A DNA stretch of 39,361 bases from Candidatus Magasanikbacteria bacterium GW2011_GWA2_56_11 (GTDB taxonomy: Bacteria; Patescibacteriota; Patescibacteriia; Magasanikbacterales; UBA922). The notes under the pieces are model-generated. The model searched no databases. It was not told the DNA's origin and saw nothing but the letters and a program-made list of their open reading frames with translations. The translations under genes and the position numbers were made by a program. The stretch is from NCBI GenBank assembly GCA_001004885.1, contig LCRX01000007.1, positions 1 to 39,361 on the forward strand. Reading direction: 5' to 3'. This document shows, in pieces, positions 4,314 to 37,167 of the stretch (position 1 is its first letter; each line of letters starts with the position of its first letter).

Positions 4314-4342
4314 TTGTCGGCCGCCGGCTAATATGGTATAGT
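4314..4342 (+). promoter_or_regulatory. Sigma70-like promoter: TTGTCG - 17 nt - TATAGT with extended -10 (TGG)
   Basis: TTGTCG at 4314-4319, TATAGT at 4337-4342; immediately 5' of palindromic element copy 1 and gmhA-like gene. Confidence 0.5.
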
Positions 4343-4354
4343 CGCGCTAACTTT

Positions 4355-4511
4355 GGACTGGTAGTGCGTTATTAGCAATTCTCTTTTCTAAGTCGAGCCG
4401 AAACATAGACTGATTTTCGCGGCACCAAAACTCGCTCCTACAGGCTCAGACATTGGGGCCGCGAAAATCAGTCTATGTTTCGGCTAAAAAGGGGAAAGTC
4501 GCTATGAGTTC
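4355..4511 (+). repeat. Palindromic element A, copy 1 (~157 bp)
   Basis: Perfect 28-bp inverted arms AGCCGAAACATAGACTGATTTTCGCGGC (4396-4423) / GCCGCGAAAATCAGTCTATGTTTCGGCT (4458-4485) around a 34-nt loop; ends GGACTGGTAGTGCGT / GTCGCTATGAGTTC; related copies at 33603 and 35908. Confidence 0.92.
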
Positions 4512-4546: not shown

Positions 4547-5224
4547 ATGAAGGATGAAGTCCGCTCCTCTTTTGCGGCGCAGTTTCTCGATCAAGTGGGG
4601 GACGTTACTGTCGCCATCAAGGTTCTCTACAGCGAAAAACTCGACCAGGCGGTGGATCTTTTATTTGCGGCTTGGAAACAAGGCCACTGGGTTTATATCA
4701 TGGGCAATGGCGGCTCGGCCTCGACCGCTACTCATTTGGCGGCTGATTTAAATAAAACTATCTGTCCCTCCCCCGAAGACAAGGGTCTCAAGTCGATCGC
4801 CTTAGTTGATAACATCCCGCTTGTTAGCGCGCTGACCAATGATTGGGGCTGGGAGAATATCTATGTAAACCAGCTCGAGACCCTCTATGTTGATGGCGGC
4901 GTCGGCATCGCCTTTAGCGTGCACGGCGGGAGCGGCCAGGATTTATCCGGTAAGTGGTCGCAGAACGTGCTTAAGGGTTTGCAGTACGTCAAAGACCGCG
5001 GCGGCCGGACTATAGGTTTTTCTGGTTTTGACGGCGGTCCGATGAAAGACCTGGTTGACGTGGGTATCGTCGTGCCCGCGCGTTCGACGCCTATAGTCGA
5101 AGGACTGCATGTGGTTCTTCACCATCTGGTCGTTTTTGGCCTCAAAGAGCGGATTGCCGCCCACAAAGAACAATCTGCCGTCGCTTTTTCCTCACCCTAT
5201 GGCCCGACGAGCCGTGTTTATTGA
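4547..5224 (+). CDS. gmhA: SIS-domain phosphosugar isomerase, sedoheptulose-7-phosphate isomerase-like
   Basis: YIMGNGGSASTATHLAADL, VHGGSGQ; followed by GmhB-like gene. Confidence 0.75.
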   Translation: MKDEVRSSFAAQFLDQVGDVTVAIKVLYSEKLDQAVDLLFAAWKQGHWVYIMGNGGSASTATHLAADLNKTICPSPEDKGLKSIALVDNIPLVSALTNDWGWENIYVNQLETLYVDGGVGIAFSVHGGSGQDLSGKWSQNVLKGLQYVKDRGGRTIGFSGFDGGPMKDLVDVGIVVPARSTPIVEGLHVVLHHLVVFGLKERIAAHKEQSAVAFSSPYGPTSRVY

Positions 5225-33550: not shown

Positions 33551-33580
33551 TTGTCGGCTCTTTCGGGCCTATGGTATACT
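33551..33580 (+). promoter_or_regulatory. Sigma70-like promoter TTGTCG - 18 - TATACT with extended -10 (TGG)
   Basis: TTGTCGGCTCTTTCGGGCCTATGGTATACT; same architecture as promoter at 4314. Confidence 0.5.
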
Positions 33581-33602: not shown

Positions 33603-33758
33603 GGACTGGTAGTGAGTTATTAGCAATTCTACCCTAAGTTGAGCCGAAACATAGACTGATTTTTACGGCACCAAAACTCGCTCTTATAGGCTAGGACATT
33701 GGGGCCGTAAAAATCAATCTATGTTTGAGGCGAAAAGGGGGAAACCCGCTATGAGTTC
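33603..33758 (+). repeat. Palindromic element A, copy 2 (~156 bp)
   Basis: GGACTGGTAGTGAGTTATTAGCAATTCT...AGCCGAAACATAGACTGATTTTTACGGC-loop-GCCGTAAAAATCAATCTATGTTTGAGGC...CGCTATGAGTTC; 4-bp ATAA on both flanks. Confidence 0.9.
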
Positions 33759-33782: not shown

Positions 33783-35903
33783 ATGAAAACAAAAAAACAA
33801 GTCAACCAAGCCTCGATTAGAGTCCGGGCGGTAGGCCTACTCGCTGTCCTGAGCTTGGTTTCTTCTGTGCTGCCGCGGGGGGTTTTGGCTAAGACTAGCA
33901 ATGATCCGTACGCCTATCAGTGGGGTTACGAGGACACGGGCGTGTATCGCGCCTGGGACAAAACCACTGGCTCGCGCGATGTGGTCGTGGCCATAATTGA
34001 CAACGGTTTTGACCATTTTCACCCGGATTTGCGGGACAATGTTTGGCAAAACGAAAAAGAAATACCGGACAACCGGATCGACGACGACAAAAACGGCTAT
34101 ATAGACGATGTTTACGGCTGGAATTTTATGGTCGAAGACGCCAATCGCGACGGCGTGGTAGACCGGGGGGAGCGGCAGGGGACGAATGATCCGCGGCCGG
34201 ATTTAAGCCAAGTTTCGAGCGAGGACAAAGCTACCGGAGTCGTCCATCACGGCACGTTCGTGGCCGGGCTTATCGGGGCTACGGGCGGCAACCAGCGCGA
34301 CGGGGTCGGGCTCAACTGGCAGGTTAAGCTCATGAATCTAAAGGTTATCGGCGCCAACGGCGTCGGCGACGTGGCGCCGCTCGCGCCGGCGATACGCTAC
34401 GCGGTTGATAACGGCGCCCATATTATCAATATCAGCATGGTCGGCAGCGAGGACGAGTCGGTCCGCCAGGCGGCGCTGTACGCCTACGCCCGCGGCATCG
34501 TTCTGGTCGCGGCGGCCGGCAACAATTATTTCAATCTGAATACTAATCCTTCTTACCCGATTTGTATCGACGCGCAGCAGCCGCAAGAAGTGCTCATCGG
34601 CGTCAGCGCTATCGGCCGCGACCATCGCCTGGCGCAATTCTCCAACACCGGTTCGAGCTGCATTGATATTACCGCGCCCGGCGTCGCGATTAATTCCGCG
34701 GTCGGCTACGCGCCGGAATACGGTTTTGCCGAAAGCTACGGCCGCCTCTGGCAGGGTACGTCGTTTGCCGCTCCGTTTGTGAGCGGCGCCGCGGCGCTGA
34801 TCAAAAGCCTGCAGCCGTCTTGGCGGGCGCCCGAGATTTACGAGGCCATTTTACAGACGGTCCACCGGACGCCGCCGACCGATGTGGCGGCGTACGAAAA
34901 TTTATACGGCGCCGGCCGGCTTCAGATAGACAAAGCCGTGCAATACGCGCTCGATAGGGCAGTCTCTCCGGCCGCGCCGGCAGAACCGCCGCCCATAGCG
35001 ATTCTGCCGGTACCGAACGCAGAACAGCCGGCCGCGCCGGCCCCGGCCAAGGACAAGCGTCGTCTGAGCGCTTACAATCCGGCTACCGGCGAGTTTGCGG
35101 AAGCGTATCTCGGCAGTGATAAGCGGGCCTCTTTGGAGCGGCCGGAAACGGCCGGCGCCGAGACGGCTGCCCAGGGTAAAAACGACCCGGGCGAAGACAT
35201 TTTTGTTGTCGCCCGCAAAAAAACCGGCGCGACTTACGAACTGTCGGTTTACAACCGCAAGTGGTGGCGCGAGAGCCGTTTTGAACTCAATCTCGCCGGT
35301 CCGGTAGTGCTGGCGGTCGGCGATGCCACCGGCGACGCGGCGCCGGAAATAATCGTCGGCCCGCGGGGCGCGAGCCGGGAGGTTTTCCGGATTTTTTCGC
35401 TCTCGGGCCAGGAACTCGCGGCGGTCAAACATACTGCCGCGCACGAAGGCGTGGGGCTCACAGTGTCCGGACAAGAGGTGAGCGCCGTTTTTTGGGACCA
35501 GGGCGAACTGCGGCTGCATCGCTACCAGGGCGGCGCGCTCGCCGGTTCTTTCGCGCTTCAGGATCTTGGCCGCCGGGCAGAAGTGGCGCTGGCCAATCTG
35601 GACAAGGATTCCGAACTGGAATATGTTTTTGGTTCTGGCCCAAAGGTAACGCCGATCGTGGCTGAGTACGAGCGCGACGGATCGTTCCGCCTGTCATTTT
35701 CAGTGCCGGGCGGGAACGGTTCCGGCGTGTCCGTTATGGCCTTTGATTACCTGGATGACGCCCGGGACGAGATTATCGCCTATCCCAATTCCGGTCCAGC
35801 GGTCGTCGGCGCCTGGAAGGCAAACGGCAAACGCGCGGCCGAGTGGTCGTTCTTCGCCGGACGAAAGCTCGATCGGTTTAATGTTTTGCGGTATAATAGC
35901 TGA
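33783..35903 (+). CDS. Secreted subtilisin-like (S8) serine protease with C-terminal FG-GAP/VCBS-like region
   Basis: Signal peptide; catalytic VVVAIIDNGFDHFHPDL (Asp), HHGTFVAGLIGA (His), QGTSFAAPFVSGAAAL (Ser); C-term AVGDATGDAAPEIIVGP. Confidence 0.9.
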   Translation: MKTKKQVNQASIRVRAVGLLAVLSLVSSVLPRGVLAKTSNDPYAYQWGYEDTGVYRAWDKTTGSRDVVVAIIDNGFDHFHPDLRDNVWQNEKEIPDNRIDDDKNGYIDDVYGWNFMVEDANRDGVVDRGERQGTNDPRPDLSQVSSEDKATGVVHHGTFVAGLIGATGGNQRDGVGLNWQVKLMNLKVIGANGVGDVAPLAPAIRYAVDNGAHIINISMVGSEDESVRQAALYAYARGIVLVAAAGNNYFNLNTNPSYPICIDAQQPQEVLIGVSAIGRDHRLAQFSNTGSSCIDITAPGVAINSAVGYAPEYGFAESYGRLWQGTSFAAPFVSGAAALIKSLQPSWRAPEIYEAILQTVHRTPPTDVAAYENLYGAGRLQIDKAVQYALDRAVSPAAPAEPPPIAILPVPNAEQPAAPAPAKDKRRLSAYNPATGEFAEAYLGSDKRASLERPETAGAETAAQGKNDPGEDIFVVARKKTGATYELSVYNRKWWRESRFELNLAGPVVLAVGDATGDAAPEIIVGPRGASREVFRIFSLSGQELAAVKHTAAHEGVGLTVSGQEVSAVFWDQGELRLHRYQGGALAGSFALQDLGRRAEVALANLDKDSELEYVFGSGPKVTPIVAEYERDGSFRLSFSVPGGNGSGVSVMAFDYLDDARDEIIAYPNSGPAVVGAWKANGKRAAEWSFFAGRKLDRFNVLRYNS

Positions 35904-35907
35904 TAGT

Positions 35908-36061
35908 GAACCCATAGCGAGTCCCCCCCTCGCCGAAACATAGACTGATTTTTACGGCCCCAAAACTCGCTCTTACAGGCTCAGACATTGGTGCCGCGAA
36001 AATCAGTCTATGTTTCGGCTCAAGTTAGAGAATAGAATTGCTAATAACTCGCTACCAGTTC
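35908..36061 (-). repeat. Palindromic element A, copy 3 (~154 bp), inverted relative to copies 1-2
   Basis: GAACCCATAGCGAGT...GCCGAAACATAGACTGATTTTTACGGC-loop-GCCGCGAAAATCAGTCTATGTTTCGGC...AGAATTGCTAATAACTCGCTACCAGTTC. Confidence 0.92.
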
Positions 36062-36153: not shown

Positions 36154-37167
36154 ATGATTACAGGAACCCCCATCTTCGAGAAAAAAAACGTCCTCATTAC
36201 CGGCGGCGCCGGGTTTATCGGCTCGCATCTTTCGGAGCGTCTGCTGCGCGAGGCCAAGGTTATCTGCCTGGATGATTTTTCCAATTCCAATATTGTCAAT
36301 ATCCAGCATCTGTTGCAGTACCCTGACTTCGAGTTTATCAAGTACGACGTCAACCAGCCGATTGATTTGGACCAGTTTCCGGAACTCGACAAATTTCGGG
36401 TGAAATTTCAGGGTATTCAGGAGATATACCATCTGGCCTGTCCGACCAGTCCCAAAAACTTCGAGAATCTCAAGGTCCATTCGTTGTGGGCCAACTCCCG
36501 GGCCATACTCTCTACCCTGGATTTGGCGGTCAAGTACAAGGCCAAGTATTTATTCGCCTCGAGTTCGGTCGTCTACGGCGAAGCCACGGAAGAGCGGAAT
36601 TTTTTTACCGAAACCGATGAAGGGCGCGTCAACCACCTGTCGCCGCGCGGCTGCTACGACGAGGGCAAACGGTTCGCCGAAACCTGCGTGGAGACTTACC
36701 GCCAGGTTTATAAAATTGACGCCAAAATCGCCCGGGTTTTCACCACCTACGGCCCGCGCATGAAAATTCGCGACGGTCTTTTGATTCCGGATTTTATCTT
36801 GAACGCCCTCGAAGGGCGGGATTTGGTGATTTACGGCGACGAGAAGCTCGAGCAATCGCTCTGTTACGTTACGGATGTCATCGACGGCTTAGCGCGGTTG
36901 ATGACGACCGGACCGGAGGTTTCTCTGGTCAATCTGGGTTCGGACGAGGTTCTGAAGATGGTTGATGTCGCCCGCATGATAGTGGATCTGACGCGCTCCA
37001 GTTCGCGCGTCGTCTTCGAGGCGCCGCTCGTGTTTTTGACCCGCAAAGGGTCTCCGGACTTGCGGCGCGCCAGAGAGCAGCTGGGCTGGCTGCCGCTGGT
37101 GCGCCTGGCCGACGGCATCCAGCGGACCATTGATTATACGGTGGCCAACAAAGAAGCGCTCACCTAG
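36154..37167 (+). CDS. uxs: UDP-glucuronate decarboxylase / UDP-xylose synthase-like
   Basis: NVLITGGAGFIGSHLSERLL, IYHLACPTSPKNF, SPRGCYDEGKRFAET, VFTTYGPRM. Confidence 0.83.
   Translation: MITGTPIFEKKNVLITGGAGFIGSHLSERLLREAKVICLDDFSNSNIVNIQHLLQYPDFEFIKYDVNQPIDLDQFPELDKFRVKFQGIQEIYHLACPTSPKNFENLKVHSLWANSRAILSTLDLAVKYKAKYLFASSSVVYGEATEERNFFTETDEGRVNHLSPRGCYDEGKRFAETCVETYRQVYKIDAKIARVFTTYGPRMKIRDGLLIPDFILNALEGRDLVIYGDEKLEQSLCYVTDVIDGLARLMTTGPEVSLVNLGSDEVLKMVDVARMIVDLTRSSSRVVFEAPLVFLTRKGSPDLRRAREQLGWLPLVRLADGIQRTIDYTVANKEALT

Follow-up and report, generated by a model that had tools for sequence, protein, structure and literature searches.

Loop inversion and promoter-proximal placement in a MITE-like hairpin family of a Magasanikbacteria genome

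The window, by which we mean the whole stretch of DNA that was analysed (positions 1-39361, 39,361 nt, contig C7 of a 1.25-Mb genome in 23 contigs), contains many sugar-nucleotide and glycosyltransferase genes, among them epimerases, a UDP-glucose dehydrogenase and a bacterial sugar transferase, and the contig is probably a surface polysaccharide locus. Within the window there are three copies of a hairpin element (Table 1), and a repeat search recovered both arms and the 24-nt spacer of each one. Read along the + strand, copy 3 runs from GAACCCATAG...GGCCCCAA into the loop AACTCGCTCTTACAGGCTCAGACA and from there through TTGGTGCC...CTACCAGTTC. Comparison of the window with Rfam models gave nothing at gathering level and, at a low threshold, nothing credible.

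Table 1. Positions of the three elements in the window and of the features next to them.
Feature	Position	Strand	Remarks
Copy 3	35908..36061	-	154 bp, full length, majority arrangement; R end left, L end right
Copy 3 loop, AACTCGCTCTTACAGGCTCAGACA	35964..35987	+	24 nt; sense relative to downstream gene
Copy 3 5' arm	35932..35963	+	pairs with 35988-36019
Copy 3 3' arm	35988..36019	+	pairs with 35932-35963
Copy 3 R-end terminal inverted repeat	35908..35923	+	includes AGCGAG at 35916-35921, complement of loop CTCGCT
TATAAT, -10-like box	35892..35897	+	start 16 nt before copy 3
NAD-dependent epimerase gene	36154..37167	+	downstream of copy 3
Copy 1	4355..4511	+	minority loop; L end toward promoter; exact 3-bp target duplication TTT
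Copy 1 loop	4429..4452	+	24-nt spacer between arms
TATAGT, -10-like box	4337..4342	+	start 18 nt before copy 1
SIS-domain gene	4547..5224	+	downstream of copy 1
Copy 2	33603..33758	+	minority loop; flanked by divergent genes
Copy 2 loop, variant AACTCGCTCTTATAGGCTAGGACA	33675..33698	+	24-nt spacer between arms
TATACT, -10-like box	33575..33580	+	start 28 nt before copy 2

The genome holds about 45 such loops, of either orientation and 40 of them within full-length elements, a number well beyond what chance would give. The element is about 155 bp long and carries GAACTSRYAGYGAGTT as a terminal inverted repeat at both ends; inside, two hairpin arms of about 28-32 bp enclose the 24-nt loop. We call the end that begins GAACTG the L end and the one that begins GAACTC the R end. 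In the direction from L to R, a type A loop is AACTCGCTCTTACAGGCTCAGACA or a near variant of it, and a type B loop is the reverse complement. An exact 3-bp target duplication flanks 28 of the 40 copies (shuffled pairs: mean 3.3, maximum 10). These duplications are variable in sequence (ATT, ATA, AAC, GTG and others), and an integron attC site was rejected for that reason.

With the copy 3 element as query, the genomes of 38 relatives gave no match; the exact loop was absent from public genome contigs and viral contigs, and the plasmid and phage collections searched gave no match. The same ends, enclosing different inner hairpins and often flanked by 3-bp duplications, are present in further genomes of the order: with one mismatch or none allowed, G030 has 17 such ends and G085 has 16, while a reversed control pattern has 0. 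Some of these genomes have inner hairpins that include TGTCATTCC-type repeats, and the element ends seem to have captured unrelated hairpins. Palindromes of TGTCATTCC-type repeats lie inside the same terminal repeats in other genera (L131, L135, L139-L141 and L150). L067 and L092, from two genera, have in common a structured loop about 41 nt long (CCATTACGCCCCGCC.CTAGCGGGTTTGG.CGCTA) on stems that are quite unlike each other, and the same structured loop is found in a third place, L093, with no recognisable ends. At L104 (G000:C9:6361-6680), another long palindromic hairpin, which has a structured loop of its own, has split a copy whose outer 3-bp duplication, TAT, is undamaged; these hairpin elements therefore nest in each other.

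Terminal inverted repeats, a 3-bp target duplication and a short, non-coding, multicopy body are the features of a miniature inverted-repeat transposable element (MITE). A search of this genome for the DDE transposase PF01609 (DDE_Tnp_1) found none, no pair of ends enclosed a transposase at the places examined, and no complete autonomous element was found. We class the family, on these sequence features, as MITE-like and stop short of MITE, because the family search, confined to PF01609, and the places examined gave no transposase-bearing relative. Two candidates for an autonomous copy were set aside. In G030, two R ends separated by 2.7 kb have ordinary genes between them. In G049, a gene for a XerA/integron-integrase-like tyrosine recombinase ends 18 nt before a near-perfect R end (L099, G049:C31:2033-2901), and the second end was not found. 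Correia elements (CREE) have outward promoters within their ends, a TA duplication and neisserial sequence; the family described here has a 3-bp duplication, different ends and a promoter outside the element, and does not belong with them.

The copies are placed in a constrained way. In 20 of the 40 copies the first base of a TATAAT-like hexamer lies 16-19 nt ahead of the R end (shuffled 0.8, maximum 4), and 11 of those 20 also have a -35-like box at the proper spacing (shuffled 2.0); promoters are here consensus matches to the sequence. Three of four copies outside the 40 fit as well, C8:14456 at -18, C2:16511 at -17 and C9:6361 at -18. Among the R-type ends of other genomes, a -10 box lies at -19 to -16 in 9 of 41 (shuffled 1.3, maximum 6) and at -19 to -15 in 12 of 41. 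Additionally, with genes called by codon usage and Pfam, the gene start on the L side faces the element in all 33 scorable type B copies (24 tandem, 9 divergent, 0 reversed and 0 convergent). As for the type A copies, copy 1 and C2:21586 are reversed, copy 2 has divergent genes on its two sides, and the other two are oriented as usual. The G049 copy L067, whose L end is apparently upstream, is an exception to the orientation rule. The genes that follow the copies are of various kinds, with epimerases, ATP synthase, PPDK, superoxide dismutase and phosphoglycerate mutase among them.

Conservation along the element is uneven. Pairwise difference is 0.6% in the loop nonamer AACTCGCTC, 4.6% in the last nine loop bases and 17% between them; the arms differ by 7-9%, the terminal repeats by 12-15% and the bases that adjoin the R end by 27%. 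Taking the target duplications as a clock (17 mismatches in 120), we find 1 change in the nonamer vs 25.5 expected from target-duplication decay, an expectation that would be inflated if some of these mismatches stem from imprecise insertion and so raise the neutral rate. The R hexamer AGCGAG has 3 changes in 210, compared with 18 in 210 for the L hexamer (p 0.001); the outer eight bases are similar at both ends (24/280 and 29/280). The complementarity of AGCGAG to CTCGCT in the loop is retained in 34 of 35 copies, a pairing that offers no real covariation, the loop being invariant. We also considered, and rejected, a repressor operator at the R end: only the inner half of the palindrome is conserved, which fits better with pairing to the loop. 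Changes in the stem show no RNA-strand preference, with 20 G-U vs 21 A-C cells, and RNA selection on the stem through a G-U preference is thus unsupported. The strong conservation of the nonamer and the R hexamer suggests that the 5' part of a leader would pair with the loop and that the element may have a role at the RNA level; the stem changes and the lack of covariation count against this.

Two rival readings of the placement were weighed. According to the first, the transposase targets transcription-initiation regions, for example the open complex, and thereby sets position and orientation, with no leader-RNA function involved. This agrees with the recurrence of the -10 spacing in other genera despite unrelated inner hairpins, with copy 1 lying at exactly -18 though its ends are reversed, with the strand symmetry of the stem changes and with the mixed function of the downstream genes. 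However, it leaves the near-invariant nonamer and R hexamer unexplained, when other parts decay about as fast as the target duplications, and there are hardly any reversed insertions at this spacing. We give it serious, though less than even, weight. According to the second reading, insertion is random, and the only copies to survive are those at the 5' end of an mRNA, where the element would serve as a leader that regulates or stabilises the transcript. Strict orientation, the 5'-leader position and the conserved loop with its pairing hexamer would all follow; yet copies would then be expected at neutral sites such as convergent intergenic regions, where none of the classified full-length copies lies, and the main spacing cluster is only about 4 nt wide. 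Selection alone is in our judgement rather unlikely. We favour instead a combination, in which a transposing element came to lie behind promoters and its leader parts were then kept by selection.

We turn to the orientation of the loop. An earlier note on this DNA had reported that the loop is inverted relative to the outer ends between copy 3 and copies 1 and 2, and direct reading of the sequence bears this out: the outer ends of copies 1 and 2 are opposite to those of copy 3, and the loop has the same + strand orientation in all three. Its choice of copy 3 as the odd, flipped one was mistaken. When loop orientation is counted against flank orientation genome-wide, 35 of the 40 full-length copies are type B, the arrangement of copy 3, which two other genera share; only five are type A (copy 1, copy 2, C13:73854, C2:21586 and C14:73942). 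In homologous elements of the two other genera, CCAAACCCGCT stands at the place and in the orientation of the type B CCAAAACTCGCT, while the stems differ. Because two related genomes carry it at the same place and in the same orientation, type B is likely the ancestral state, and copies 1 and 2 would have the derived loop. Copy 3 does combine one arm of each type, as the note had it, and this does not make it special, for the TAC/CAC/CGC polymorphism of the arms is shuffled across all copies.

How much of the element was turned over can be read from markers in the arms. The outer marker, GCCGAAAC vs GCCTCAAAC, stays with the outer ends and never flips with the loop, and the innermost arm marker is likewise unflipped, with L-side CACCAA and R-side TTGGGG in four of the five A copies. 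Therefore the breakpoints would be placed in or at CCAA/TTGG, and the flipped segment would comprise the loop and at most the adjacent CCAA/TTGG. In a tree built from sequence outside the loop, the five A copies require five changes; strongly supported branches force only two of these, tree support being weak. A single A clade is rejected (AU p 0.018), which on these sequences puts the number of independent loop inversions at two or more. The near-sisters C14:73942 (A) and C6:119419 (B) have a rare L end in common and opposite loop orientations.

Signs of copying from arm to arm point to the agent. C6:119419 has a CA insertion in one arm and the complementary TG in the other, and arm concordance within copies is 556 vs 540 after shuffling, a modest excess that 3 of 2000 shuffles equalled or surpassed. 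Exchange between different copies is disfavoured because it predicts elements with two L or two R ends, and there are none among the full-length copies. Template switching between the arms of inverted repeats homogenises arms and inverts spacers (PMC8604942), and it is described as creating and maintaining hairpins (PMC8794818). The most economical cause would thus be DNA-polymerase template switching between the arms. The earlier note had named arm-mediated inversion or template switching beside a site-specific invertible switch; the former stands as the best-supported origin, with at least two events, breakpoints at the arm/loop junctions and arm-to-arm copying, and the latter finds no support.

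Such a switch would have a recombinase flip the loop between the CCAA/TTGG junctions and so vary the phase of the adjacent gene. A flip that is precise to within 4 bp of the loop and a highly conserved loop motif would suit it, but a 24-nt spacer is very short for the synapsis of duplex sites. Moreover, no recombinase or recombination site was seen linked to the copies, the R end beside the G049 tyrosine recombinase lacks a matching partner, the loop contains no promoter that could be recognised, and the flipped loop, present in only five of the 40 copies, is the minority state among old, diverged copies. Even with the precedent of Neisseria Correia elements, which are reported to invert (PMC10969869), a programmed switch is very improbable. 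Assembly artefacts at repeats are hardly a credible source of the flipped loops: the genome is a draft in 23 contigs and palindromes assemble poorly, but the flipped copies lie inside contigs, two with their own loop variant, and exact target duplications flank copy 1, C13:73854, C2:21586 and C14:73942.

Does the flip matter to the neighbouring gene? Among tandem cases, 2 of 2 reversed copies and 2 of the 26 others have a flipped loop (Fisher p 0.016, calculated by hand), a small sample which is suggestive of a flip being able to restore a sense loop. A strict rule that loop orientation follows transcription is contradicted by C13:73854 and C14:73942, two of the five flipped copies, in which the loop is antisense to its own gene.

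Taken together, the account that we consider fairly probable is that of a promoter-docked, MITE-like family with loop flips by replication accident and leader elements under selection. A non-autonomous element would have spread by transposition, with a 3-bp target duplication, into transcription-initiation regions; as its R end points toward the promoter, the element would be transcribed as the start of the mRNA leader. Copy 3 would retain the ancestral loop orientation. In at least two lineages, which include copies 1 and 2, the loop would have been inverted in place by a polymerase that switched template between the arms during replication, a sporadic accident and not a programmed switch. 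After insertion, selection would have kept the nonamer AACTCGCTC and the upstream AGCGAG, probably through pairing in the leader RNA. A broader proposal is that one order-wide family of transposable elements inserts, in a single orientation, into transcription-initiation sites about 12 nt past the -10 box, a bacterial parallel to Ty3 of yeast and other start-site-targeting retroelements, and that the copies of one lineage were domesticated as pseudoknotted mRNA leaders in which flips alter the sense of the conserved loop; we offer this tentatively, as possible and short of probable.

The family resembles known prokaryotic MITEs (PMC10969869) in being short, multicopy, non-coding and intergenic, in its terminal inverted repeats and target duplication, and in nesting. 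It differs from them in that no parent insertion sequence was identified here and in its nearly fixed -10 spacing and fixed orientation across several genera, for which the literature searched held no description in MITEs; nor did it hold anything that links Patescibacteria with MITEs. Correia CREE/NEMIS repeats of Neisseria, with over 120 copies per gonococcal genome, are likewise short, with inverted repeats and a conserved core, often near gene 5' ends, with structured transcripts and reported inversion (PMC2649163). They may bring their own promoters and RNase III sites, whereas here the promoter is external and the sequence different, and here the inner loop alone is inverted and not the whole element. 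Pneumococcal BOX, RUP and SPRITE repeats are also dispersed, modular mobile hairpins, some of them in transcribed leaders; fixed promoter spacing and loop inversion are not noted for them in the passages of PMC3049150 that were consulted.

For the loop, the closest likeness is the spacer inversion by template switching described in yeast (PMC8604942), where the spacer is inverted, the arms stay in place and are homogenised. The yeast cases concern coding sequences, and their spacers are very short; in the family described here the spacer has 24 nt and is reversed in place, with its arms retained, in dispersed mobile hairpins. The flip is a clear example from nature of spacer inversion in hairpins dispersed through a bacterial genome, with template switching as the probable cause. 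Loop inversion is then best explained as a known kind of replication accident, and the promoter-linked placement is the unexpected part of the family. It suggests either a transposition system that recognises transcription initiation or a mobile element turned into a shared 5' leader, in the latter case for dozens of unrelated genes in a reduced-genome lineage.

Some incomplete copies deserve mention. Two half elements at unrelated loci, L059 (C4:70527) and L060 (C8:14456), terminate at one and the same base of the 3' arm (TGCCGTAAAAAT). A lone L end (L066, C11:33904) stops after about 50 nt, between a likely tRNA gene and a TATACT box. Finally, at L065 (C14:55945-56710), a stretch beside a gene for an Era-like GTPase that lacks its predicted N terminus has a partial or degraded copy on either side, the two in opposite orientation; a rearrangement or misassembly between the copies may be the cause.
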